DNA of 64,000 nt from Salinibacterium sp. SWN248 (GTDB lineage: Bacteria > Actinomycetota > Actinomycetes > Actinomycetales > Microbacteriaceae), in contig NZ_JADYWW010000001.1 of assembly GCF_015864575.1 (NCBI RefSeq), positions 682,001-746,000 on the forward strand, written 5' to 3'. The notes below the pieces were generated by a model. It was not told the DNA's origin and made no database searches. It saw only the letters and a list, made by a program, of their open reading frames with translations. Position numbers and translations under genes: made by a program. Numbering within the stretch: the stretch's first letter is position 1; each line of letters opens with the position of its first letter. Below, piece by piece: positions 50,954-64,000 of this stretch.

Positions 50954-51526
50954 TCAGTCGGGAACGCTGAACGACCGCGCCCATCGCGCTTTTCTCAACA
51001 GGATGACCACGGAGACTACTGTCACGATCGTGATGGAGATGATGATCAGCACCACATTGGCATCGACCCAGGTCGCGAAGAACCGTGCAAAACCAGAGCT
51101 GAGGATGCCGCCGGTGCCGCCGTCGTAGAGGTAGGTGAGAAACAGGCTGTACGGGTAGCTGATCGCGGCCGCAATGATCATCGTCACAATGCCGAGGCCT
51201 GCGGCGACGCCGAAGCCGTGCTCTTGAACGGGAAAGCGGTCGGAGGCGCGAGCGAAGAGCGAGAAGGCAATCAGAATCGCGAAGGGGGCGGTAGCGGCTC
51301 CCGCGGTTGGCGAGGCGAGGCCGAATATTGCGGCGAGTGCGGCAGCAAGGGGGATGGTGAGTAACGTGACGAGCACTCCGCGGCGAAAGCGGTACGGCCC
51401 GTCAGGCTCGAGGATTATGTTGCCGCGGCCGTGCTCAGCGGCAGCGATTTGGGCTTCGACTTCAAATACGCGCCCTTGAGCGTGGGCATAGTTGCCGGGG
51501 CCAGGGTTTTGATACATCTCTGACAC
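50954..51526 (-). CDS. Four-helix membrane protein, paralog A (tail motif absent)
   Basis: A 190-residue protein with four hydrophobic helices. It shares with the genes at 51674, 59962 and 60829 the opening PYRFRRGVLVTLLTIPLA, the Tyr/Ser/Phe loop after helix 3 (PYSLFLTYLYDGGTGGI) and the basic end of helix 4. It lacks the C-terminal LNGKPL motif of the other three. Start GTG 51526 is placed by GAGGTGAT eight bases upstream; ATG 51517 is an alternative. Family not recognised. Confidence 0.78.
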   Translation of the reverse strand: MSEMYQNPGPGNYAHAQGRVFEVEAQIAAAEHGRGNIILEPDGPYRFRRGVLVTLLTIPLAAALAAIFGLASPTAGAATAPFAILIAFSLFARASDRFPVQEHGFGVAAGLGIVTMIIAAAISYPYSLFLTYLYDGGTGGILSSGFARFFATWVDANVVLIIISITIVTVVSVVILLRKARWARSFSVPD

Positions 51527-51673
51527 TGTTATCACCTCGTGTGGCGCGGCGGGAGTTTCTCGCCGGGCACCTTTTCGCTAGCTCTCAGGATACCTAAGTA
51601 TTTCTCCACAGTGGGCCTTTCACAGTGAGGATCTTGATGCCGCACCGGTTGCGTGGCTGTTTCCCGTGGATGG

Positions 51674-52504
51674 TTATCTTTCCGTTCGAAGACCTGACCA
51701 TGCCCTAATCGCTTTGTGGGCGAGGTCGCTCACCCTCGACGAGAACCCCTTCGTGATTTCCTGTTCGTCGAGTGGTTTTCCATTGAGGATGATGCCGGGG
51801 GACGAGGCATTGATGGTCATGACGTGATTGGCGAACCGATTGGCTGCATTCGCCGAGTTGGTGGCGGATGACGACAACGCTTGTCGCGACGTCTCGAAGC
51901 GGGTGGTCGCTGATGTTGCTGCAGCATTGGCTTTCGCGATGATGCTTTCGCGGTGCGCAGCGAGGGCTTTGGCGACGTTCATGACAATCACGAGGATGGC
52001 GACAACGGCGGTGACGGTTAGCGGAATGGCGACTTGTTCGGCCCGAGTCGGGAAAGGAAAATCGGCGCGCCCCGCGAGGATGTCCTCAATGATTCCGGTC
52101 GTGCCGCCGTTAGAAACGAAGCTGGTGTAGACGTCAGAGAGCAGGCCGGAGAGGGCTCCGAGAACGGTAGCGATGGTGCCAACGACGAGGGCGAACATGA
52201 AGTCACGGCCGCGTGTCACGGTCTGGCGAGAACCTACGGCAAAGAGCTGAAAGGCCGTGAGCATTCCGAGGGCGCCGAAGATGGCTGCGATTCCGAATCC
52301 CAGCAGGCCAACAAGGATTGCGGCGGCGATTGCGAGGGGGATCGCGAACAGCGAGAGAAATGCTCCGAGGCCGAAGTTGTAGGGCGTGGTGTCGGCGGGA
52401 AGGGTGCGACCGTTGGTGTTCGCGGCGGAGATCATGGCGGCGGAGTGGCGTTCGAGCGAGCGCGCGTACTTGGCGGGGCTCTGCTGTGAGAAGAGACCTG
52501 ACAT
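51674..52504 (-). CDS. Four-helix membrane protein with LNGKPL tail, paralog B
   Basis: A 276-residue protein. Helices are near residues 45-69, 71-91, 103-124 and 157-180. The loop after helix 3 has VYTSFVSNGGTTGII. A charged, Ala/Ser-rich, probably coiled region (185-230) leads to SSPGIILNGKPLDEQE (234-249) and a basic end. With an even helix number and N-terminus inside, the tail motif would be cytoplasmic. GGAGG precedes ATG 52504. Function unknown. Confidence 0.82.
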   Translation of the reverse strand: MSGLFSQQSPAKYARSLERHSAAMISAANTNGRTLPADTTPYNFGLGAFLSLFAIPLAIAAAILVGLLGFGIAAIFGALGMLTAFQLFAVGSRQTVTRGRDFMFALVVGTIATVLGALSGLLSDVYTSFVSNGGTTGIIEDILAGRADFPFPTRAEQVAIPLTVTAVVAILVIVMNVAKALAAHRESIIAKANAAATSATTRFETSRQALSSSATNSANAANRFANHVMTINASSPGIILNGKPLDEQEITKGFSSRVSDLAHKAIRAWSGLRTER

Positions 52505-52692
52505 TGTGGCGACCTCCGATCGCACCGCAACGGCTCCGTTGCTCGAGTTAACAGAATAGCTTTCTTGCCGGTGAGGCGGCAGGGAGCGTACGAAGTGCCC
52601 GTGGGGCGCGGATGTCCTGTGGTGGGTTCACTGCACACGGTTAACGGTTGCGAGGCCCCGAGGGGTTGCCGCCTGCGGTTACCCGCGCAGCG

Positions 52693-54891
52693 TTATCCGC
52701 GCAGGGCAAGCGCGAACGGCAGTACGGCATCCGCGCCGGCGTCGCGGAGTGCTTTCGCGGCGATCGTGAGCGTCCAGCGCGAGTCGACGAGGTCATCTAC
52801 GAGCAGGATGGGGCCGTTGGGCAGTTCGCCGCCCGCCCATTCGAACTGTTGCCACACACTCGCGAGCCGGTAGGCGCTATTGCCGCCGGGCTCACCCTGT
52901 GGTCCATCACCGGTGAGCGAGAGTGACCCGAGGTAGGGCAGTTTGCCCGCGCTCGCGAGGGCTTCGGCGACGGATGCCACGAGTTGTGGTCGGCGGCGTG
53001 ACGGCATCGAGACCACGGCGACGGGTCGCTCATCCCAGCCCCAGTCGGCGAGTACGCGCACGCAGGCGGCAACGAGCGCGGGGCTCGCTGGTGCGTCGGG
53101 GGTGCCGGGGGCGAAGAGGGTGCGCAGGGTGCCGCCCCAGCCGAGGTCGTTGAGGCGGGCGAGGGCGCGGCCTTCGAGGGAGCGTTGGTCGGGGTTGATG
53201 CGTCCGCGCACGGGCACGCCCACTTTGTCGGCTCCGGTGGGCCATTGGGCGCGGGGTTCGATGGGCACACCGACTTTGTCGAGGGTGGCGGTGGCACGGC
53301 TGGTGGCATCCGTGCTGATGTCGGTGGGGTACCAGATCCCGGCGCAGTTGTCGCAGCGGCCGCAGGGGGTGGCGGTGTCGTCGTCGAGGGCGCGTTGCAG
53401 AAATTCCATGCGGCAGCCTTCGGTGCCGGCGGGGAGCTGTTCGTAGTCGAGCATGTTCTGTTGTTCGGCGCGGCGGGCGGCGGTGACTCCGGCGTAGCGT
53501 TCGGCGTCGTAGCTCCAGGGTTGGCCGGTGGCGGTCCAGCCGCCTTGCACGCGGGCGACGGCACCGTCGACATCCAACACTTTGAGCAGCAGTTCGAGGG
53601 GGCTGCGGCGCAGGTTCACGCGCGCTTCGAGCGCGGGGGTGGAGACGGGCCCGGCGCCAGAGTCGGCGGCGGCGGTGAGCTCGGAGATCACGAGTTCGGC
53701 GTTGGCTTGGTCGGGCATGGATGAGGTGGCGAAGTATTCCCAGATGTCGCGGTCTTCGGGCCCGGGCATGAGCAGTACGTCGGCGTTGTCGGTGGCACGC
53801 CCGGCGCGGCCGACCTGTTGGTAGTAGGCCACGGGAGAAGAAGGGGCACCGAGGTGGATGACGAAGCCCAGGTCGGGCTTGTCGAAGCCCATGCCGAGGG
53901 CGCTGGTGGCAACGAGCGCTTTGACGGTGTTGTTCTTGAGCGCCTGTTCGGACTCTTCGCGTTCTTGCGGGTCGGTTTTGCCGGTGTAGGCGCGCACATC
54001 CATGCCGCTATCGCGCAGCAGTCGCGCGGTGTCTTCGGCGGCCGAAACGGTGAGCGTGTAGATGATGCCGCTGCCGGGCAGTTCGGCGAGGTGACTCAGC
54101 AGCCAGCCGAGGCGAGCTCGGGCATCCGGCAATTTCAGTACGCCAAGCCGCAGGGATGCTCGCGCGAGGGGTCCGCGGATGGTGACGACTTCGGTGCCTG
54201 CCGCGGCTGTGCTCTCGGCGACGCCTGTGGTGCCTGCGGGGTTTTCGACGCTAGGGCTGCCGTCGGTGCCGCCGCTTGCACCACCTTCGAGCTGCGCGGC
54301 AATGTCGGCGACGACGCGGGAGTTGGCGGTGGCGGTGGTGGCGAGCACGGGTACGCCGGCGGGCATGGTGGCGATGAGTTCGCGCAGGCGGCGGTAGTCG
54401 GGGCGAAAGTCGTGGCCCCAGTCGCTGATGCAGTGCGCTTCGTCGACGACGAGCATCCCGATGCGGTTGATCAGTGCGGGCAGTTGGTTGTCGCGAAAGC
54501 TGGGGTTGTTGAGGCGTTCGGGCGAGACGAGCAGCACATCAACTTCGTCGTTGGCGAGCTGCTGCTGAACTTCAGCCCATTCGTGGGGGTTGGTGGAGTT
54601 GATGGCGACAGCCCGAACTCCGGCGCGGGATGCCGCGGCAATCTGATCACGCATCAGTGCGAGCAGTGGCGACACGAGCACGGTAGGCCCCGCACCTCGC
54701 CGGCGCATCAGCAGCGTGGAGACGAAGTAGACGGCGGACTTTCCCCACCCGGTGCGCTGCACCACGAGCGCCCGGCGGCGCCCATCGACGAGCGTCTCGA
54801 TCGCCTCAAACTGCCCCTCATGAAAATCGGCAGTCTCATTGCCCACAAGCGTGCGAAGAACGGTCAGGGCCTCAGTGCGGGTATCTGTCAC
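52693..54891 (-). CDS. RecQ-family DNA helicase fused to a phosphoribosyltransferase-like domain
   Basis: A 732-residue protein. Helicase motifs: I RTGWGKSAVYF, II VVDEAHCISDWGHDFRPDY, and VI QQVGRAGRA. The RecQ zinc site follows (GCRMEFLQRALDD...CGRCDNC). The last 200 or so residues form a type I PRTase-like domain with the PRPP-loop ILLVDDLVDSRWTLT. A Gly/Ser/Thr-rich insert near residue 205-240 interrupts the helicase core. GTG start. Such fusions occur in actinobacteria; the PRTase substrate is unknown. Confidence 0.93.
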   Translation of the reverse strand: MTDTRTEALTVLRTLVGNETADFHEGQFEAIETLVDGRRRALVVQRTGWGKSAVYFVSTLLMRRRGAGPTVLVSPLLALMRDQIAAASRAGVRAVAINSTNPHEWAEVQQQLANDEVDVLLVSPERLNNPSFRDNQLPALINRIGMLVVDEAHCISDWGHDFRPDYRRLRELIATMPAGVPVLATTATANSRVVADIAAQLEGGASGGTDGSPSVENPAGTTGVAESTAAAGTEVVTIRGPLARASLRLGVLKLPDARARLGWLLSHLAELPGSGIIYTLTVSAAEDTARLLRDSGMDVRAYTGKTDPQEREESEQALKNNTVKALVATSALGMGFDKPDLGFVIHLGAPSSPVAYYQQVGRAGRATDNADVLLMPGPEDRDIWEYFATSSMPDQANAELVISELTAAADSGAGPVSTPALEARVNLRRSPLELLLKVLDVDGAVARVQGGWTATGQPWSYDAERYAGVTAARRAEQQNMLDYEQLPAGTEGCRMEFLQRALDDDTATPCGRCDNCAGIWYPTDISTDATSRATATLDKVGVPIEPRAQWPTGADKVGVPVRGRINPDQRSLEGRALARLNDLGWGGTLRTLFAPGTPDAPASPALVAACVRVLADWGWDERPVAVVSMPSRRRPQLVASVAEALASAGKLPYLGSLSLTGDGPQGEPGGNSAYRLASVWQQFEWAGGELPNGPILLVDDLVDSRWTLTIAAKALRDAGADAVLPFALALRG

Positions 54892-54974
54892 GTGGCTAGT
54901 GTGTCAGGGGGTGCTGACTTTTTATCCGTTGCATTGAGGTCAAAGCATCCATGAACGTTGCCCATCTCGACTTG

Positions 54975-54980
54975 TAGTTT
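54975..54980 (+). promoter_or_regulatory. -10 box for the methyltransferase gene
   Basis: TAGTTT lies six bases before ATG 54987 and supports that start over ATG 55035. Confidence 0.45.
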
Positions 54981-54986
54981 GATTCG

Positions 54987-56039
54987 ATGGCCAGTCAAGC
55001 CGCCGATGTCGGCGCCACACGAGATAATCAAACAATGCTTAAGTCACTTGAAATTTGCGCCGGTGCCGGCGGGCAAGCCATCGGTTTAGAACGCGCGGGT
55101 TTCCAACACGTTGCGGTCGTTGAGAATGACAAACATGCAGCTGCAACTTTGCGGCTCAATCGCGACAACGAAGAGACGACTGGAAGACATCGTTGGCCGG
55201 TGCTGGAGATGGATGTGCACGAGCTCGACGGCAGCGATTATCCAGGTTTGGACCTTTTTGCGGGTGGTGTCCCATGCCCTCCATTCAGCATTGCTGGCAA
55301 GCAGCTCGGAGCCGACGATGAACGGGATCTTTTTCCCAAAGCATTGGAAATCGTTCGAGACGCACAACCCAAAGCTGTCCTTCTAGAGAATGTGCGCGGG
55401 CTTAGCTCGGCGCGATTCGCCGACTACCGGTCACAAGTTGTTCAAACCTTGGAGGATTTGGGGTATACGACTTGGTGGCAGATCATAAATGCTTCAGAAC
55501 ACGGGGTTGCGCAACTTCGCCCTCGTTTCGTTCTTGTTGCGATTAAGCACATCTATGCCGAAGGGTTTGAGTGGCCACGTCCAGTGGCATCTCCCCCAAC
55601 TGTAGGCGAGGTCCTCTACTCCCAGATGGCATCCAACGGATGGGGTGGCGTAGATGACTGGATGGAACGAGCGAATGCCATCGGTCCGACTTTGGTCGGT
55701 GGAAGTAAGAAGCACGGTGGCCCGGATCTGGGGCCGACTCGAGCTCGCGAAGCGTGGCTAGCCCTCGGGGTCGACGGACGCGGACTCGCCAACGAGCCTC
55801 CGGCGAGCGATTTCGTGGGTTCTCCAAGACTTACCGTGCCGATGGCTGCGGCTATCCAAGGATTTCCCGACGACTGGAAGTTCAGCGGCGGGAAGACAGC
55901 CTCGTATCGACAAGTGGGAAACGCATTCCCGCCACCCGTCGCTGAAGCAATCGGTCGAAGTATTGCGCGTGCGTTGCGGAAAAAGCCGAAGCAAAGCGTG
56001 AATGCGCTTAAGCCCGTTGTAGACGGTGTCGAGCAATAG
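54987..56039 (+). CDS. DNA (cytosine-5)-methyltransferase, Dcm family
   Basis: A 350-residue C5 methyltransferase: motif I LEICAGAGGQAIGLERAG, IV GVPCPPFS with the catalytic Cys, VI ENVRGL, VIII QLRPRFVLVA, X QVGNAFPPPVAEAIG. The target-recognition region is short (about 190-260). Codon use is more AT-tolerant than in flanking genes, suggesting transfer. It is followed 51 bases later by an HNH nuclease, so a restriction-modification pair is likely. Confidence 0.95.
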   Translation: MASQAADVGATRDNQTMLKSLEICAGAGGQAIGLERAGFQHVAVVENDKHAAATLRLNRDNEETTGRHRWPVLEMDVHELDGSDYPGLDLFAGGVPCPPFSIAGKQLGADDERDLFPKALEIVRDAQPKAVLLENVRGLSSARFADYRSQVVQTLEDLGYTTWWQIINASEHGVAQLRPRFVLVAIKHIYAEGFEWPRPVASPPTVGEVLYSQMASNGWGGVDDWMERANAIGPTLVGGSKKHGGPDLGPTRAREAWLALGVDGRGLANEPPASDFVGSPRLTVPMAAAIQGFPDDWKFSGGKTASYRQVGNAFPPPVAEAIGRSIARALRKKPKQSVNALKPVVDGVEQ

Positions 56040-56090
56040 CCTCAATTGTGACCCGGCAGATTACGGGGTTCCAACGAAACGGAGACAAAC

Positions 56091-56864
56091 GTGACAGCGT
56101 TGCGCGATGACTATCCTGAGGGAGCGTATTCCCCGGACGGAGTCTTGTGGTGGGAGCAGGAATTTCACTCAGGCACTCGGCAAGTGTTTGGCGGCGAGCA
56201 GAAGTTAGCAGCTTGGCTTTATTGGAACGTCGATGAGGGGTCTACTTTCACGATGCCTGTACTTCGTGAAGCCCTCGATAGTGAAGCAGAGCATTTGAAC
56301 CGCCGGCTCCGCTCGCTGCGTGAGCTTGGATGGGTTCTTCCGTCATACCAGGATGATCGCACTCTCGGAACTGGCCAGTATCGCGTTGAGGCGAAAGGCT
56401 GGTGGCCAGGTGAGGGTGCACGTCCAAGAACTGGCGGTGCGGTTAGTCAGCGCATTCGAAGAGTCGTTTTTGACCGCGATGGCAGCCGCTGTGTGATCTG
56501 CGGAGTTGGAAGCGGGGAGCAGTATCCTGGCGAGCCAACGAGCAGAGCCACGATGACCATCGGACACCGAATTGCGCAGGCATTAGGTGGAAGTGATCGG
56601 CCAGATAACTTGCGCACAGAGTGCAGTCGGTGCAATGAGCCCCGACGTGAAGAAGGACGCAGACCGGAACGATTCGACGAGATTTTTACTGAGATTCGTC
56701 GATTCTCGAGAGAGGATCTACGGACGCTCCATCAGTGGGTTGTCGATGGCCAGCGTAGCCGTTCGAAAGTAGACGAAATCTATGATCGGCTTAGGTCGCT
56801 CGGCCACGAAGAGCAGCGCGATGCGGCTTCGCGTATTCAAGAAATGCTATTAGGGCGAGCATGA
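56091..56864 (+). CDS. HNH endonuclease with N-terminal winged helix, probable restriction enzyme
   Basis: A 257-residue protein. Residues about 35-115 look like a winged helix (AAWLYWNVDEGSTFTMPVLR, LRELGWVLPS). The HNH domain (about 120-185) has RCVICG, IGHRIAQALGGSDRPDNLR and TECSRCN, with the zinc Cys pairs and catalytic His. GGAGAC precedes GTG 56091. Next to a C5 methyltransferase on the same strand it is best read as the cognate Type II nuclease. Confidence 0.85.
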   Translation: MTALRDDYPEGAYSPDGVLWWEQEFHSGTRQVFGGEQKLAAWLYWNVDEGSTFTMPVLREALDSEAEHLNRRLRSLRELGWVLPSYQDDRTLGTGQYRVEAKGWWPGEGARPRTGGAVSQRIRRVVFDRDGSRCVICGVGSGEQYPGEPTSRATMTIGHRIAQALGGSDRPDNLRTECSRCNEPRREEGRRPERFDEIFTEIRRFSREDLRTLHQWVVDGQRSRSKVDEIYDRLRSLGHEEQRDAASRIQEMLLGRA

Positions 56865-56926
56865 TATTGCGGCTTTTCCATATTAAATTACATGGATGAT
56901 TAGCTCGAGCTGATGAGTAGAGATCG

Positions 56927-57273
56927 CTATGGAGCGCTCCCCGTCTTCTCAATCAGCTCAACCACGGGGATGTCGGTCGGCGCCCATTCGAGGTCGCTCA
57001 GCTCGGCAGGCGCGAGCCAACGAACTTCCGCGTGCTCGGTCAGCACTGGCGTTTTGGAGAGCAGTTCGCCCACTGACACCTCGAACTCAAGTTCTTCGCT
57101 GATTTCCCGAGCGAGCGCATCGCGGAGAATCTGATCAGCTTCGATTTTGCCGCCGAGGGAACTCCCACATGCAGGACGATGCACCACGATGCACCACGAG
57201 GCCCGCGCGGGGCGCACAGGATGAGGCCGTCGCGCACGATGACTGCGACGACGACGCCGATCCGTTTCTTCAA
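56927..57273 (-). pseudogene. Degenerate mutT (NUDIX) copy
   Basis: A broken copy of the intact mutT at 59516. The N-terminal frame reads LKKRIGVVVAVIVRDGLIL. A duplicated GTGCATCGTG and an extra base near the WEFPGGK codons then shift the frame. The second frame continues KIEADQILRDALAREISEEL and TEHAEVRWLAPAELSDLEW. About 22 residues present in the intact gene before TPVLTEH are missing. The start has become TTG. Confidence 0.9.
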
Positions 57274-57323
57274 AGACGATCTCTTCTGGGTTTTTTCGAC
57301 GGGCGACCGTCGAACTTTTGCAT
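57270..57323 (-). pseudogene. Vestigial LNGKPL-type tail in front of the mutT relic
   Basis: In frame with a stop that overlaps the mutT-relic start (TTGA), these bases read KFDGRPSKKPRRDRL. This recalls the C-termini LNGKPLDEKKPKK of paralog D and LNGEPL of paralog C, whose intact gene overlaps intact mutT in the same way (GTGA). It is probably the remains of a former C-mutT unit. Confidence 0.5.
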
Positions 57324-57479
57324 GCGGCGGAACTGGGCGAGTCTGGATTGTGCGGCGCGCAACGCTGTAGGTTGCCGCAGCGTCACACACACATTCCTCC
57401 CGGCGATTAGCTCAAGTTTGGTCGCCAGGCAGGCCCATAAAGCTTGCGAGAAAATCGGCGGACTCGCCATCACTTGCGC

Positions 57480-59315
57480 CTAAGGCTTTGTTGAATCGAC
57501 CCAACCATCCTCTAATTCCAACTCGGGGGATTCTGGACCGAAATAGGGCCATCGATCGATCGCCCAGGCTTGCAGTTCCAGCGAACGATGGGCGATCGTC
57601 TTTGGTGTCCATTCCTCATAATCGTCGTAGATGTGCTTTGTAGTCGCGAAAACCGTCTCGTTGCTGAGCCGCGCACGCGCATCTGCCCAGTTTCCCGATC
57701 CCTTCCCAGCGTTGGCAGCGTTTGAGAGAGGGACGAGGTTCGCCCAGGTGTTCAATAGGGCATTGTGTTCGTCGGGTGTGAACGACAGAGTCCAATCGCC
57801 GGAATGGCTTTGAGGCATTACGTGATCGACTGTCACACTAGGGAACGACTCTAAGACATCGCCAGACGTGTGAACTCTCTCGTATTCGGTGAGCACGTAG
57901 GCACATATCCGCCGGTGGTAGAGGTCCCCAGATTCGATTGCTTCTTTGACCCTATCGTTCGCGGGAAATACGACCGTGTTGGAGACGATTTCTTTCCTGA
58001 CGAGAGCAGGGTCCCCTCCAGCGTCTACCCACAGCCTCTTGAAGATGGCATGCAATCCAGTCGGCTCGATACCAAGGAGCGCTCGGCGAACGAGGAACGA
58101 TTCGATAATCTCTAGGCACTTCACTGCGGCGAACGTGTCGATGTCCCCAGAACCCGTTGCGGTGAGCAGCTGAATTATGTAGGGGTAGCAGGAGCTCGGC
58201 CGGTTCAGATCGTTCAATCGCCGCACTGCAATAACGAGCTCGGGCTCAAGGCCGTCGAGCTTCGCAGAATGAATCGCGTTGTAGCTCGACTGGTAGCGGC
58301 GAAGATCGCGCATGATCGCCAGCATCTGTTGCTTCGGGTCATTGGTATCTGCGGCATCCTCGCTCCACCGGCGGGCGAGGGCCTTGAACGTTGAAGACTT
58401 TGTGACCTGCGGATCGATGGTTAACGCAAAGGGGAAAAAATAACCTGTTTTCGCTGCATCGTCCGCAAACGCATCTTCGAATGGCTTCCACTCTTCCGAG
58501 TAGAGCTTCAAAGCCAACTTGGCGTCGTCGCGAAGTCGTTTGAGGACCTCATTGCGTACTAAATCGATGATTCCGAGTTTCACACCTTCGTTGTTTAGGC
58601 GGTCGAAAACTTCGTTCGGATCATGTGCGTCACCGAGGCGAATTTCGACGAATTCGAGGTTGTCCAGGAGCACATCCCGGAGCCTGCCGATTCGCGCAAC
58701 AACTTGATCTTCGGTTAGCGGGGTTCCGGTTTCTGACTCCGAAGTTCGCTTTTCGACGTGACCGAGCAATAGCTTGTAGGCTTTCGCGAGATCGCCACTC
58801 GACTCACCTGCTTCTCTCTCTACATCAATATCGAGGTCGAAGCCGTCGCCGAACGCGGATCTCAAAATGTCGTTAAACTGTCTCGTGTCTTTGAGCGTCG
58901 GGCGCAACTTCGGCTGGTTTTTAGTAGCGCGCTTCCGGCTGACCACGTACTGCTCAAAGAGGTCGCTCGCAATGTCCTTGCCTGCGTCTCCGAACCGACG
59001 CGCGTGGGCTGCCAAAGCCACGATCGTTAACACCATCGTGGTCATTCTCTGCTGGCCATCGATTATCCAGTAAAGCCCGGCTTCGCCCGCGGTCGAAGGG
59101 CGTTCGTCGTCGAAAACTAGAGCCCCAAGAAATCTGCCCTTGTATTGTTCGTCCAGAATGGTGTCGATGTCCTCCCAAAGCATGTCAATTTGAGCACGCC
59201 CCCAGACGTATCTTCTCTGGAAAAGAGGACAGTACAGCTGTACGTCGTCCTTCAGTCGGTCTCCTAGACTCACTGGGGCCGCTTCGAGCCCGCGCACTTC
59301 CGCCATGAACTTCAC
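57480..59315 (-). CDS. DUF262/DUF1524 (GmrSD-like) protein
   Basis: A 611-residue single-chain protein with the architecture of GmrSD Type IV modification-dependent restriction enzymes. The N-terminal DUF262 has PLFQRRYVWGRAQIDMLWED and the nucleotide-binding motif IIDGQQRMTTM. FDRLNNEGVKLGIIDLVRN follows. The C-terminal DUF1524 HNH-type domain has VDHVMPQSHSGDW and WANLVPLSNAANAGKG. It may cleave modified phage DNA using NTP hydrolysis. GTG 59315 is used; ATG 59306 is equally possible. It lies between the mutT relic and intact mutT. Confidence 0.9.
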   Translation of the reverse strand: MKFMAEVRGLEAAPVSLGDRLKDDVQLYCPLFQRRYVWGRAQIDMLWEDIDTILDEQYKGRFLGALVFDDERPSTAGEAGLYWIIDGQQRMTTMVLTIVALAAHARRFGDAGKDIASDLFEQYVVSRKRATKNQPKLRPTLKDTRQFNDILRSAFGDGFDLDIDVEREAGESSGDLAKAYKLLLGHVEKRTSESETGTPLTEDQVVARIGRLRDVLLDNLEFVEIRLGDAHDPNEVFDRLNNEGVKLGIIDLVRNEVLKRLRDDAKLALKLYSEEWKPFEDAFADDAAKTGYFFPFALTIDPQVTKSSTFKALARRWSEDAADTNDPKQQMLAIMRDLRRYQSSYNAIHSAKLDGLEPELVIAVRRLNDLNRPSSCYPYIIQLLTATGSGDIDTFAAVKCLEIIESFLVRRALLGIEPTGLHAIFKRLWVDAGGDPALVRKEIVSNTVVFPANDRVKEAIESGDLYHRRICAYVLTEYERVHTSGDVLESFPSVTVDHVMPQSHSGDWTLSFTPDEHNALLNTWANLVPLSNAANAGKGSGNWADARARLSNETVFATTKHIYDDYEEWTPKTIAHRSLELQAWAIDRWPYFGPESPELELEDGWVDSTKP

Positions 59316-59515
59316 TCTCGATTAGAGGATTCTTCCGTTTTGCCAGGATAGGGGAGGGCGCTCAGCCGTTGCATGCCCCCAAAAGGGGCTTACCGCTCCT
59401 GAGCGAGCTCCGCTTATTCATGGCCACCTGCTTCTTTTAGGCGGCAACGGTTCATCGGACTCCGGCGATCGGACACTCTCGCGCCGCGTACGCCGTTGGC
59501 TGCTTGGGCACCCTA

Positions 59516-59965
59516 CTAAAGATTGGTAACGGCAGGCTCGGCGAGTAGTTGATTTGACTCGATGCGGACTGAGCTTGCCGCCGTCGCAATCAGCGCGACC
59601 GCGGGGATGTCGGCAGGCGCCCAGTCGAGCGAACTCAGTTCGGCGGGCGCGAGCCAGCGCACCTCCGCGTGCTCGGTCAGCACCGGCGTTCCGGAGAGCA
59701 GCCCGCAGTAGAACGTGGTCAGCGCGACGATTCCGAAGTCGTATTCGCGAGTGGTCGTGGTGATCAGCTCGCCTACGGCCACTTCGCACTCAAGCTCTTC
59801 GGTGATCTCTCGCGCGAGCGCATCGCGAGGAGTCTCGCCGGCCTCGATCTTGCCGCCGGGAAACTCCCACATCCCGGGCAAGGCTCCGCCGGGTCCGCGC
59901 TGGGCGCACAGGATCAGACCATCGCGCACGATGACCGCGCCGACGACATTGATCTGTTTCTTCAC
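59516..59965 (-). CDS. NUDIX hydrolase, MutT/CTP-diphosphatase type
   Basis: A 149-residue NUDIX protein. The Nudix box is complete (G-x5-E-x7-R-E-x-x-E-E-L, in GKIEAGETPRDALAREITEE). It begins KKQINVVGAVIVRDGLILCA and has WEFPGGK. It probably hydrolyses oxidised or non-canonical nucleotides. The GTG overlaps the stop of the upstream membrane gene by four bases, so it is coupled to it. Confidence 0.93.
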   Translation of the reverse strand: MKKQINVVGAVIVRDGLILCAQRGPGGALPGMWEFPGGKIEAGETPRDALAREITEELECEVAVGELITTTTREYDFGIVALTTFYCGLLSGTPVLTEHAEVRWLAPAELSSLDWAPADIPAVALIATAASSVRIESNQLLAEPAVTNL

Positions 59966-60708
59966 TGCTGATCCTTCTTGGCGGCTGATCGATTCCAGAG
60001 GCTCTTCTTCTCCGGCTGGTTCACCAGCGGCTCGCCATTCAGCAGAATACCGGGACTGTTGCGCGGGGTGGCGGAGGCGGGAGCGTCTGCCGGTGCGGCG
60101 GCGTGAGCATCCGGAGCGCTCGACCCGTTCCAGGTGTCAGGGGGCTGAACGTCGGCAGCTTCGCGACGGGTGGCCAGGGCACTGCGGCCCGCGCTCACCA
60201 CCAGGATGACTGAGAACACGATCACAAGGAGCGCCGGGATCAGCACCTCGAGAATGCTATTGCTGAGCTGGAGTTCGACCCGGCGGGCGAAGACGCTGCC
60301 GAACAGGCCGCCCTTGTCGCCAGCCGAGATGAAGGAGCGGTAGACGGCTGCGAGGTATCCGCTGATGAACCCGAGCGTCACCGCGATAGCGCCAATCAGG
60401 GCGCTCAGCGCGAAGCCGGCGCCGCTGATGGCTTTGCGGCGGGAACCGAACGTGAAGAGCGCGAAGACGGCCAGCATCCCGACCGCGGCGAAGGCTGAAG
60501 CGAACCCGAAGCCGAGCGACGCCAGCACTGTTGTCACCGCTACCGCCAGCGGGATCGCGAGCAACGCGAACGCGACACCGCGCCCAAAGCTGTAGGGACG
60601 CGGGGCGGGGTCAAGAACCTCAGTCACAGCAGGGCCTCCATCGGTATTCATGCGAGCCAGTGCGCGGCTGCGGCTGTTGGACAATCGCTGCAGCGCGAGT
60701 TCGGGCAA
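59962..60708 (-). CDS. Four-helix membrane protein with LNGEPL tail, paralog C
   Basis: A 248-residue protein if started at TTG 60708 (AGGGAA upstream); ATG 60651 is an alternative. It opens PYSFGRGVAFALLAIPLA, has helices near 44-68, 70-88, 97-118 and 150-172, the loop VYRSFISAGDKGGLFGSVF, then an Ala/Pro linker and NSPGILLNGEPLVNQ (217-231) with a basic end. It overlaps mutT and may be regulated with it. Paralog of the genes at 50954, 51674 and 60829. Confidence 0.82.
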   Translation of the reverse strand: MPELALQRLSNSRSRALARMNTDGGPAVTEVLDPAPRPYSFGRGVAFALLAIPLAVAVTTVLASLGFGFASAFAAVGMLAVFALFTFGSRRKAISGAGFALSALIGAIAVTLGFISGYLAAVYRSFISAGDKGGLFGSVFARRVELQLSNSILEVLIPALLVIVFSVILVVSAGRSALATRREAADVQPPDTWNGSSAPDAHAAAPADAPASATPRNSPGILLNGEPLVNQPEKKSLWNRSAAKKDQQ

Positions 60709-60767
60709 GGGGCGTTCCCTGCGATCATCATCGAGACTACTGTTCGCGCGCAGTCGCGAGCCACTGT

Positions 60768-60813
60768 GGGCAGCTCGGGCGCCACCACCGGTAGCGGGTG
60801 TCAGTGGCGCCGG
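60768..60813 (-). pseudogene. Relic of the nei 3' end
   Basis: About 46 bases match the 3' end of nei (61768-61813) with roughly six differences. On the minus strand they read ATDTRYRWWRPSCP beside the intact TDTRYMWWCPSCQK. The relic lies just upstream of paralog C, as intact nei lies upstream of paralog D. Confidence 0.75.
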
Positions 60814-60828
60814 TTCCCGCTGCCGAGG

Positions 60829-61596
60829 CTACTTCTTGGGCTTCTTTTCGTCGAGCGGTTTTCCGTTGAGCAGGATGCCGCTGGAGGATTCGTTGAGGGT
60901 GGGGGAGAGTGCGGGGCTGCTCGTTGCCGTTGTCGCATTTTTCTCCCGTGCGGGACTTGGTGCGGCAACCGGTGCGGCACCTGGTGCAGTGAACTCGGAA
61001 AACTGTTCAGCCGTCAGAACTCGCACCCGGCCTGTTCCGTTCACTATCTGGGATCTGAGCTGAACTATTCCGATAGCGAGCACGATGCCTACGGCGCACA
61101 CGACCAGAATTTCGGCGCGGCCCTCGCTCACTCGTTGGCTGAGGACGGTGGCGAAGGTGTCGCCGAAAAATCCGCCATCTCCGGAGACTGCCAAGAACGA
61201 GGCGTAGGAATGGGCTATCACCGCGGCGCCGAAGCCAAGCATGACCGCGACCCCACCAATGGCGATCGCGGTGACGAGCGTGCGCCCTCTGAGCGGTGAT
61301 CGATGCGATCCGAGGTCGAATAGTTTCAGCGCCACCCACATTCCGGAGGCGGCGAAGAATATCCCGATCATTTGCCGCACGCCCGTTGCCAACGCGATCA
61401 CCGTGGGGATGAGGATCGCCACAGGGATTGCTGTGAGGGCGAGCACGAATCCGCGTCGCGGTGCGTACTGTTTCGCGAGGCGTGCGGGAACCTTTTTCGA
61501 CAGCCTGACAACGGCTTTATAAGTATTTTTTGTCATGACATCGCTGTTGTCGGTTCGCGACTTGTGGGGGCTAGCGGTGCTCAACACGGTGTCCAT
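60829..61596 (-). CDS. Four-helix membrane protein with LNGKPL tail, paralog D
   Basis: A 255-residue protein. RRGFVLALTAIPVAILIP begins helix 1 (about 48-70), with further helices near 74-92, 106-128 and 161-181. The loop is SYASFLAVSGDGGFFGDTF. An Ala/Ser/Pro linker leads to SSSGILLNGKPLDEKKPKK at the very C-terminus (237-255). GGAGGTC precedes ATG 61596; ATG at residue 21 is an alternative. Function unknown. Confidence 0.82.
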   Translation of the reverse strand: MDTVLSTASPHKSRTDNSDVMTKNTYKAVVRLSKKVPARLAKQYAPRRGFVLALTAIPVAILIPTVIALATGVRQMIGIFFAASGMWVALKLFDLGSHRSPLRGRTLVTAIAIGGVAVMLGFGAAVIAHSYASFLAVSGDGGFFGDTFATVLSQRVSEGRAEILVVCAVGIVLAIGIVQLRSQIVNGTGRVRVLTAEQFSEFTAPGAAPVAAPSPAREKNATTATSSPALSPTLNESSSGILLNGKPLDEKKPKK

Positions 61597-61759: not shown

Positions 61760-62620
61760 CTACTTCTGGCAGCTCGGGCACCACCACATGTAGCGGGTGT
61801 CGGTGGGGCCGGTGCCGAGCTGATCCGACTCGATGCGGGTGCCGCAGCGCAGGCACGGTTCGCCGCGCCGCCCGTGCACCCAGTAGCGGGGCTTGCCGCG
61901 CGGCAGGCCCGTGAGGTTGCGGATCGGGCGGTCCTTGTTCACCATGATCGCCTTGTAGCCGAGCGCGACGAGGCGTTTCGGGTCGGCGATGTCGCCGATG
62001 GGGGTGTGCGGGCGCACGCCGCGCAGAAAGCTCAACTCGTTCGCGAACACGTTGCCGAGGCCGGCGAGGTTCCGCTGATCGAGTAGTGCGAGAGCGACCG
62101 GCCGCTCGGGGTCTGAGAGCAGATTCGCCAACGCGAGGTCGGCATCCCAATCGGGGCCGAGCAGGTCGGGCCCGAGGTGCCCCACAATGCTGTCTTCGGA
62201 TGCCGTGGGCACCGCCTCAAGCAGCCCCAGTTCAAAACCTACCGCGGTCTTCGTTGCGGTACTCAGCACCCCGCGAGCCAGGTAGGAGGGCTTGCGCCAC
62301 CGTTCCCCGGCGCCGTAAATCTGCCACACGCCCTCCATCTTGAGGTGGCTGTGGATGGTGAGGCCGCCGCCGGGTTCGACGGCTGCGCCTGTGCCTGAGC
62401 CGGTGACTGCGCCCGAGGCTGCTGAAGCGACGGAGTCGGCGGCTGGCGCAACCCGAATCAGCAGGTGCTTGCCGCGCGGCACGACACTCGTGACGGTCTG
62501 GCCGCTGAGGTCGAGGGTTGCGAAGGCGGGCACTCGAAAGTCGGTGCGCGTGAGAACCTGGCCGTCGAGTGCCGCCCGCAGCTTCGCGGCCGCCTTGTAG
62601 ACGGAATCACCCTCAGGCAC
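61760..62620 (-). CDS. nei: Fpg/Nei-family DNA glycosylase (endonuclease VIII type)
   Basis: A 286-residue enzyme starting MPEGDSV with the catalytic Pro2-Glu3. The helix-two-turn-helix region is LLDQRNLAGLGNVFANELSF, and the C-terminal zinc finger is CLRCGTRIES...WWCPSCQK. It removes oxidised pyrimidines and cleaves the abasic site. Closest to actinobacterial Nei2. A Gly/Ala-rich insert (about 62-82) is not a family feature. The ATG overlaps the lhr stop by eight bases. Confidence 0.94.
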   Translation of the reverse strand: MPEGDSVYKAAAKLRAALDGQVLTRTDFRVPAFATLDLSGQTVTSVVPRGKHLLIRVAPAADSVASAASGAVTGSGTGAAVEPGGGLTIHSHLKMEGVWQIYGAGERWRKPSYLARGVLSTATKTAVGFELGLLEAVPTASEDSIVGHLGPDLLGPDWDADLALANLLSDPERPVALALLDQRNLAGLGNVFANELSFLRGVRPHTPIGDIADPKRLVALGYKAIMVNKDRPIRNLTGLPRGKPRYWVHGRRGEPCLRCGTRIESDQLGTGPTDTRYMWWCPSCQK

Positions 62621-64000
62621 GAAGCCTCAACCCCTGCGGTGTCGCGACGAATCCAGCCTCCACGAGGGCTTTGCCCACCGGGGTGCCGACGGCGAAGTCG
62701 CCATTCACTTTCTCGATGCGCAGCTTGGGCAGGGTTCCGCGGAGGGTGCTCGTGAGCGAACGCGTCGCGGCATCCACGACGGCGGGCTCGAGGTCGAAGG
62801 CGAGGAGGGACTTGCCGCCGCGCTCCAAATACAGGGCCAGATGGCCATCGACCATCACCACGACGGCGCCGGCCTTGCGGCCCGGGCGGTGCTTCTTGGG
62901 AGCATCCGCAGCGGATTTGGCGGCTGTCGCCCAGCCTTCGTCTGGCGACGAGGGGGCGTCCGAGTCGCTCCCTGCGGGACTACCTGTCGCCGAGCCAGCA
63001 CCTGCACCAGAACTGCCAGTACCGCCAGAGCCTTCACCGGCATCCGCCCCACCAATCCCGGGCCACCCCAGCGCCGCCCCGTAGGGGTTCGCCGGGTCAG
63101 TCGCGGCGAGCGTGATCGCGCGAAGTTCGGGCGCAGCATCCGGATCCCGAGTGAAACCACGCAGGCGGTCAACGGTCGCGCCGGTCGCGAACTGGGCAGC
63201 ACCGAGACCGTCGATGAAGTAACCGCGGCGTGCCCGACCGGTTTCTTCGAAGCCGCTCAGCACCCGGTACGTCAGGGCGAAGCCACCCCGGATGCCCTCG
63301 CTCACGACAGCGCCGCGAGTAACGACCGCGTGCCGTTCGAGCATGAGTTCGGCGGTCGACTTGGCGCGAACGGTGGTGTCGCCCTCCGCGGTTTCGAGGA
63401 GAGCCCAGCGGCCGGAAGCGCTCGGCGGTCCGGCTTGAGCCACGGTCGACACGCGTCCCCGGTAGGCGCGAGCGCGGGCCGGTCGAGGCGCACGGGTTGC
63501 CCGCACGGTGCCGCTGAGGTGCGATCGAAGGGGAGAAAAGCTGTCGTTGGTGATGAGCGAACGCCACACCAAATCCCACAGCTCCTTGAGCAGCGCCTTG
63601 TCATCAGTGCTGCCGACCTGATTCGAGAGCTGCCGGAAGAAGAACGCGCCACCGCCCGCCAGGTCCGCGAGAATGCTCTGCTGCAGTTCGCTCAGCCCAT
63701 CGCGGTCGGGCTCGGGCAAAGTCAGCGCTGCTGTCGCCGCAGGATGCAGACTGATCCAGCCGTCGTTGCCGGCCAGCGCGCCGTGCCCGGCCCACACCAC
63801 CTCGCCCGAGGTCGTCAGCTCGTCCAGCCAGGCGGGCGAATAGTCGCGAATGCGGGCGCTCAGAATAAAGTCTTCCCATGCGGATGCCGGGGCCGAATAC
63901 CCGGCAAGTTGGTCGATCACCTGTGCGAGGCCGTCGATCCCGCGCAGCGAGTCACCGGCAGCGGACACGTGCTGCCACGCGGGCAGGAACCGGCCAAGGG
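62613..64000 (-). CDS. lhr: ATP-dependent helicase Lhr, C-terminal part
   Basis: The last 462 or so residues of Lhr; the helicase core lies beyond the window. The frame is open to the edge, beginning GRFLPAWQHVS, so the GTG at 63968 is internal. Visible features are the Lhr C-terminal winged-helix and DUF-type regions, LSGFEETGRARRGYFIDGLGA and ALYLERGGKSLLAF. A Gly/Ser/Ala-rich linker sits near 62920-63050. Lhr works in DNA crosslink repair in mycobacteria, and coupling to nei fits a repair role. Confidence 0.9.
   Translation of the reverse strand, partial: LGRFLPAWQHVSAAGDSLRGIDGLAQVIDQLAGYSAPASAWEDFILSARIRDYSPAWLDELTTSGEVVWAGHGALAGNDGWISLHPAATAALTLPEPDRDGLSELQQSILADLAGGGAFFFRQLSNQVGSTDDKALLKELWDLVWRSLITNDSFSPLRSHLSGTVRATRAPRPARARAYRGRVSTVAQAGPPSASGRWALLETAEGDTTVRAKSTAELMLERHAVVTRGAVVSEGIRGGFALTYRVLSGFEETGRARRGYFIDGLGAAQFATGATVDRLRGFTRDPDAAPELRAITLAATDPANPYGAALGWPGIGGADAGEGSGGTGSSGAGAGSATGSPAGSDSDAPSSPDEGWATAAKSAADAPKKHRPGRKAGAVVVMVDGHLALYLERGGKSLLAFDLEPAVVDAATRSLTSTLRGTLPKLRIEKVNGDFAVGTPVGKALVEAGFVATPQGLRLRA

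Follow-up and report, generated by a model that had tools for sequence, protein, structure and literature searches.

Short conserved peptides at the C terminus of FtsZ and SSB dock partner proteins. In both cases, the peptide follows a variable linker. SidA, DidA and ChiZ, small membrane proteins with one helix, stop division as part of the DNA-damage response.

The locus described here lies within a window of 64,000 nucleotides from Salinibacterium sp. SWN248. It contains four genes for predicted four-helix membrane proteins, designated B193, A283, C248 and D255 (B, A, C and D for short). A, C and D carry the tail motif S-[PS]-G-I-[IL]-L-N-G-[KE]-P-L behind a linker. The arrangement of a short conserved peptide after a variable linker is the same as in the FtsZ and SSB tails; the difference is that the carrier is a membrane protein, and we know of no sequence likeness. 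Tail-borne docking peptides are a known kind, and this system is no new kind. It shares with SidA, DidA and ChiZ the setting of a membrane protein near damage-linked genes, but has four helices instead of one, and its LexA-box-like sites are at chance level. The genes and motif codons are as follows.

50954-51535, minus strand: B193, four-helix paralog without a tail, 193 aa
51674-52525, minus strand: A283, four-helix paralog with linker, tail motif and 31 more residues, 283 aa
51770..51802, minus strand: codons of the A tail motif, SPGIILNGKPL
59962-60708, minus strand: C248, four-helix paralog with tail motif, 248 aa
60025..60057, minus strand: codons of the C tail motif, SPGILLNGEPL
60829-61596, minus strand: D255, four-helix paralog with tail motif and 8 residues after the motif Pro, 255 aa
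60853..60885, minus strand: codons of the D tail motif, SSGILLNGKPL

The initial annotation had recognized four related genes at these places. The open reading frames are confirmed, and a search of the 3.05-Mb genome with A283 recovers A283 itself (E = 9.7e-171), C (9.8e-28), D (1.3e-16) and B (5.7e-12), with no fifth place at E ≤ 0.001. Judged by sequence, the four proteins are paralogs of one family, although only about 20-35% of residues are identical among them. Their alignment contains 15 invariant columns, which include Gly, Leu and Ile-Pro positions in helix 1 as well as a Gly in the loop that follows helix 3. Two features that had been assigned to all four hold for three each: the R-G at the start of helix 1 is present in B, C and D and replaced by L-G in A, and the Y-x-S-F loop is present in A, C and D and absent from B. 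B has a conserved stretch of the type M-x-x-G-x-[YF]-[AS]-x-A-x-G-R before helix 1, and ends soon after helix 4.

Four segments exceed the hydropathy threshold in B, C and D. Three do so in A, and the presence of helix 2 in this protein is inferred by homology. Basic residues follow helix 4 in each paralog; between helices 2 and 3, the loop carries a net basic charge in A, C and D, though not in B. These basic residues fit an N-in/C-in topology, and the tails of A, C and D are most likely cytoplasmic. AlphaFold models were built for C248 and for a relative from genome G021, each from an alignment of five sequences; their mean pLDDT values are 53.4 and 54.4, respectively. In each model, four long helices are accompanied by a mostly unstructured tail. 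The G021 model places short strands at Ile-Leu and Lys-Pro, flanking Asn-Gly, with a pLDDT of about 50; no strand is seen at the motif in the C248 model (mean pLDDT 53.4). Foldseek with the G021 model (pLDDT 54) returned nothing at E ≤ 0.001, and the best match of a sequence profile against the PDB has an E value of 5.9. Both models are too poor for a fold to be assigned from them. Nearly the same letters occur in β segments of two folded proteins, a PAAR protein (8gra, G-I-L-V-N-G-K-P-I, E = 1.3) and DegQ (3stj, G-L-L-R-N-G-K-P-L, E = 3.1); both matches are at chance level, and the segments were used solely as a hint of shape. Together with the G021 model, they hint that the motif could form a β-hairpin around an Asn-Gly turn.

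The motif pattern has three matches in the window, compared with a mean of 0.01 in 100 shuffles. The whole genome contains one further match, inside an open reading frame that by eye resembles phosphate acetyltransferase. In the shorter form G-[IV]-x-L-N-G-x-P, the motif is found after helix 4 in A, C and D and is absent from B. It had been placed at the protein end in three of the proteins. The three carriers stand, but in A and C the motif is not at the extreme C terminus, since 31 and 20 residues, respectively, follow its Leu.

Within the genus, a degenerate DNA pattern for G-[IV]-x-L-N-G-x-P yields 24 matches in 15 of 27 genomes, including one tail-only match at a contig end (G019). All 24 fall within matches of the family profile, and the reversed pattern has none. 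A still looser pattern matched all 27 genomes; it was inseparable from background and was replaced by the degenerate one. With G002 added to the 15 genomes found by the DNA pattern, the motif is kept in at least 16 of 27, contrary to the concern, raised with the initial annotation, that it might not be conserved outside this genome. Examples from relatives are PSPGIILNGKPLDPDAK in G021 and PSPGVILNGKPVDPSQK in G007.

A slightly wider pattern was applied to 299 genomes of the taxonomic family and gave 18 matches in 12 genomes (reversed pattern, 3). Eleven of these belong to five of the six genus genomes drawn. The remaining seven, among 293 genomes, lie in frames of 43 to 575 codons, none of which resembles the family by eye. 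With a narrower pattern, 150 genomes gave five matches, all in three genomes of the genus, and one match to the reversed pattern. Chance was rejected as the origin of the motif on the basis of the shuffles, the family-bound matches in the genus and the reversed-pattern controls. A module common to unrelated proteins was also considered, and no such case was seen in the own genome, the genus or the 293 others. In the searches made, the tail motif is limited to a single genus and a single protein family. No paper on the motif letters, in five spellings, was found in the literature searched.

The initial annotation had read the conserved tail as a binding or signal peptide, and the constraint on the motif agrees with this. 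No 11-residue window has a higher mean identity between subfamilies than the 11 motif residues (0.81) in 23 of the 24 tailed rows (the 154-aa G025 frame was left out, and a gap counted as a mismatch); these rows were chosen by L-N-G-x-P, so those four letters are fixed by choice, and class D merges two groups that the tree separates. The Ser and the first Gly of the motif, which lie outside the selection letters, are also invariant in these rows. The eight best windows all overlap the motif, and no ten-residue block of the helix core exceeds 0.43. Among ten A orthologs, pN/pS is 0.13 for the motif, 0.26 for the linker, 0.30 for the helix core, 0.64 behind the motif and 0.95 for the N terminus, values derived from pairs that are not independent and, for the motif, from 11 codons only. 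The linker had been described as variable. It does differ between subfamilies, but is conserved within the A orthologs, where it is about as conserved as the helix core. The sole member with a complete tail and no motif is found in G004. In a tailed G025 frame (L021:1402-1863), the first helix is missing and the motif is intact; this frame may be decaying.

A search with a profile built from 19 members detects the family in 18 of the 27 genus genomes. The other nine have no match at E 0.01, so the family is dispensable. In seven of these nine, nei was found, and no member was seen by eye in the filtered list of open reading frames within 1.5 kb downstream; a search at E 1e-40 did not find nei in the other two, G009 and G015. 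The collection comprises 36 open reading frames from 18 genomes; 24 of these frames, from 15 genomes, have the motif. G019, with a split member, is the 16th motif genome; this member is cut by contig ends, and its tail fragment is outside the collection and the identity, pN/pS and tree sets. In a tree of 50 rows, rooted at the midpoint only and with a long-branch warning, the A (10), B (9) and C (4) members each occupy one side of a supported branch. The initial D class splits into D proper (G000 and G011) and a further subfamily (G001, G006 and G025), and eight rows (G002, G004, G007, G019, two from G020, G021 and G024) lie nearer other genera. The G021 member, aligned with row L018 left out because of a stop codon, shares 25-29% of residues with A, C and D of the window and has the same motif. 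A is beside B in eight of the ten genomes that have A; G014 and G025 contain A without B, and G013 contains B without A. In G020, a very diverged tailless relative (L086:2095-2568, E = 6.1e-05) lies directly behind the tailed one, as B lies behind A.

The four-helix core extends beyond the genus. A profile from genus members matched 32 of the 299 genomes, in 17 of 85 genera including its own. Five of the 32 are from the own genus; the other 27 represent 16 genera, with best E values of 5.3e-17 to 2.5e-5. Loci were obtained for 25 of these 27, and the most hydrophobic open reading frame at each match was taken. This unnamed family, of the type E-N-V-x-R-G ... I-P ... L-Y-R-x-G-S-G-G, has the same helix pattern as the window proteins, with R-G and I-P at helix 1 and L-[YF]-x-x-G-[SA] closing helix 2. 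None of the 25 contains the motif, and the core therefore works without it. The tails are mostly Pro/Ala-rich or short, and several end near Asp-Pro. An order-wide search matched 22 of 297 genomes, of which only three from outside the taxonomic family are better than 1e-20; these come from other families of the order and have E values of 4.3e-31 to 1.7e-21. Two weak matches (L182 and L188) looked unrelated on reading. The core family probably predates the motif, which either was added at the level of this genus or existed earlier and was lost elsewhere.

The initial annotation knew of no described family with this motif, and profile searches of Pfam, NCBIfam, PADLOC and the PDB place the proteins in none. 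No Pfam or NCBIfam score of the four exceeds a curated cut-off, the best NCBIfam match being TraX for D255 (16.5 bits against a cut-off of 100). Pfam at E ≤ 1 on 25 members of the wider alignment gave a best value of 0.011 and nothing convincing. PADLOC returned nothing for the four proteins at E ≤ 0.1, and no paper on the four-helix family was found in titles and abstract openings. We regard this as a real and well-bounded feature, a tail peptide private to the genus on membrane proteins of an uncharacterised family, and found no description of it in the libraries searched.

The neighbouring genes are listed below.

52693..54891, minus strand: RecQ-type helicase, upstream neighbour of A
59516-59965: nudix
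61760..62620, minus strand: Fpg/Nei-type DNA glycosylase, frequent upstream neighbour of the family
62613..63968, minus strand: C-terminal part of Lhr with two winged-helix domains, frame open to the window edge

D lies about 160 bases downstream of nei. A nei gene is also found within the 1.5-kb upstream flank at 10 of the 25 loci from other genera, and in six of the seven genomes of the G002, G004, G007, G019, G020, G021 and G024 type. At some nei-linked loci, a further gene lies between nei and the family member or upstream of the member. In G024 (L084:908-1486), G020 (L086:821-1462) and G004 (L087:2081-2632), a staphylococcal-nuclease-like gene is located directly upstream of the member. 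LexA boxes follow the pattern CGAAC-N4-GTTCG. No perfect box is present in the window, and sites with one mismatch number 9 against 5.07 expected, a chance level that is reached or exceeded in 6 of 100 shuffles. One of these sites, at 52713-52726, is placed upstream of A, where recQ ends. With the sites at chance level, a damage link has no LexA operator behind it. Promoter and terminator scans gave nothing above chance. In mycobacteria, an lhr-nei2 operon is reported to be induced by DNA damage through PafBC and needed against crosslinks (PMC11323726). The adjacency to lhr-nei weakly suggests a role in the damage response; position near these genes does not by itself establish co-function.

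A lies directly downstream of recQ on the same strand in 10 of the 10 genomes that contain A, which are related and so do not count as ten independent cases. The best PADLOC match of the helicase is the toxin model PsyrT (1.3e-217), and there was no antitoxin match among eight other proteins scanned with PADLOC. The nudix-recQ junction (window 54987-59315; relatives L063-L072) is a hotspot for restriction-modification cargo. Ten proteins were scanned from seven of ten relatives; G012 and G025 were left out, and in G005 the nudix and recQ frames abut with no cargo. Among the cargo, G011 has an HNH gene, while G014 (Pfam and PADLOC) and G008 (PADLOC) have a type IV-like helicase with DUF3427. 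A methyltransferase and HNH are present in G001 and G023, GmrSD_N in G023 and an MvaI/BcnI nuclease in G013. An unscanned frame at the G012 junction has the length of the G014/G008 helicase and a similar start. The dcm-HNH-GmrSD block of the window is another example of this cargo. The membrane genes had been described as two pairs flanking a RecQ/restriction block. The position is correct, but since the cargo differs between genomes, the flanking is read as a by-product of insertion beside these genes.

The motif is kept better across the genus than any other stretch of the protein, which makes the docking of a partner probable. An exclusive link between peptide and family, a position behind a linker and a constraint stronger than that on the helices are as expected of a docking peptide. 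We assign a probability of about 0.5 to the reading that the tail peptide docks onto a shared, putative cytoplasmic partner outside the family. A, C and D would each be a small four-helix protein of the inner membrane whose two termini face the cytoplasm. The linker would keep the docking peptide S-[PS]-G-[IV]-[ILM]-L-N-G-x-P-[LV] clear of the membrane, and upon binding the peptide would probably fold as a β-hairpin around the Asn-Gly turn. The tailed paralogs would recruit one common partner, which their differing helices and N termini would place in different complexes or conditions. The tailless B may be an assembly partner or a non-recruiting version.

The motif might instead be a structural element within the family, pairing tail with tail or packing on the family's own cytoplasmic loops to form homo- or hetero-oligomers. 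Its restriction to this family and the suitability of a hairpin-like peptide for self-pairing agree with such contacts, as does the frequent adjacency of tailed and tailless genes (A and B in 8 of 10 genomes; the G020 pair). However, A is found without B in G014 and G025 and B without A in G013, and the helix core diverges far more between paralogs than the tail does, so that we consider this reading possible but rather unlikely. A processing, degradation or localisation signal for a general machine, such as a protease adaptor or a pole marker, seems improbable. Such a signal could be short, conserved and near the end of a flexible tail, like the motif, which is followed by 6 residues after its Pro in all five complete tailed frames of the G002, G007, G020, G021 and G024 type. 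It would be expected in unrelated proteins, whereas 24 of 24 genus matches are in this family, and the 31 and 20 residues behind the motif Leu in A and C also argue against it.

The initial annotation had further hinted at phage defence, with the four genes as the membrane part of a system that includes the RecQ/restriction block. The window neighbourhood and the resemblance of RecQ to PsyrT favour this. The hint is not supported by the other observations: the four proteins have no PADLOC match at E ≤ 0.1, the cargo varies by genome and is absent from the abutting nudix-recQ junction of G005, whereas the recQ-A pair is constant, and the methyltransferase, HNH and GmrSD of the window are unmatched within 1.5 kb of the 25 members from other genera. 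We judge it very unlikely. It is hardly credible that the motif is conserved merely through young paralogs or DNA exchange and has no function of its own. With all paralogs located within 11 kb, gene conversion among them could occur, but they have drifted to about 20-35% identity while the motif stays, and the tree supports a single group for each of A, B and C. In addition, the motif codons of A, C and D differ at synonymous places, which shows that they are not a recent DNA copy and speaks against recent gene conversion.

Docking onto a common partner could be part of a wider scheme, which we offer as a long shot. A dedicated putative cytoplasmic receptor would read S-x-G-x-x-L-N-G-x-P as a genus-private address. 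Paralogous anchors, which arose by local duplication in the lhr/nei/nudix/recQ neighbourhood, would compete for it under regulation by tailless paralogs, and repair or damage-response factors would be tethered to chosen membrane sites.

A fixed peptide on a membrane protein that drifts to 20-35% identity offers a sharp handle on the putative interaction, and docking is directly testable by peptide pull-down. With the motif restricted, in the searches made, to a single genus and protein family, the receptor may be a single identifiable protein. Its identification would provide the first functional assignment for the four-helix family, whose members lie beside lhr-nei in many genera.

Two minor observations concern nudix. 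The stop of C overlaps the nudix start by 4 bases (59962-59965), which suggests coupled translation. A 116-aa open reading frame at 57040-57390 contains a stretch like the nudix start (V-I-V-R-D-G-L-I-L-C-A), after which the likeness is lost; by eye, it is a decayed partial nudix copy beside the restriction block.
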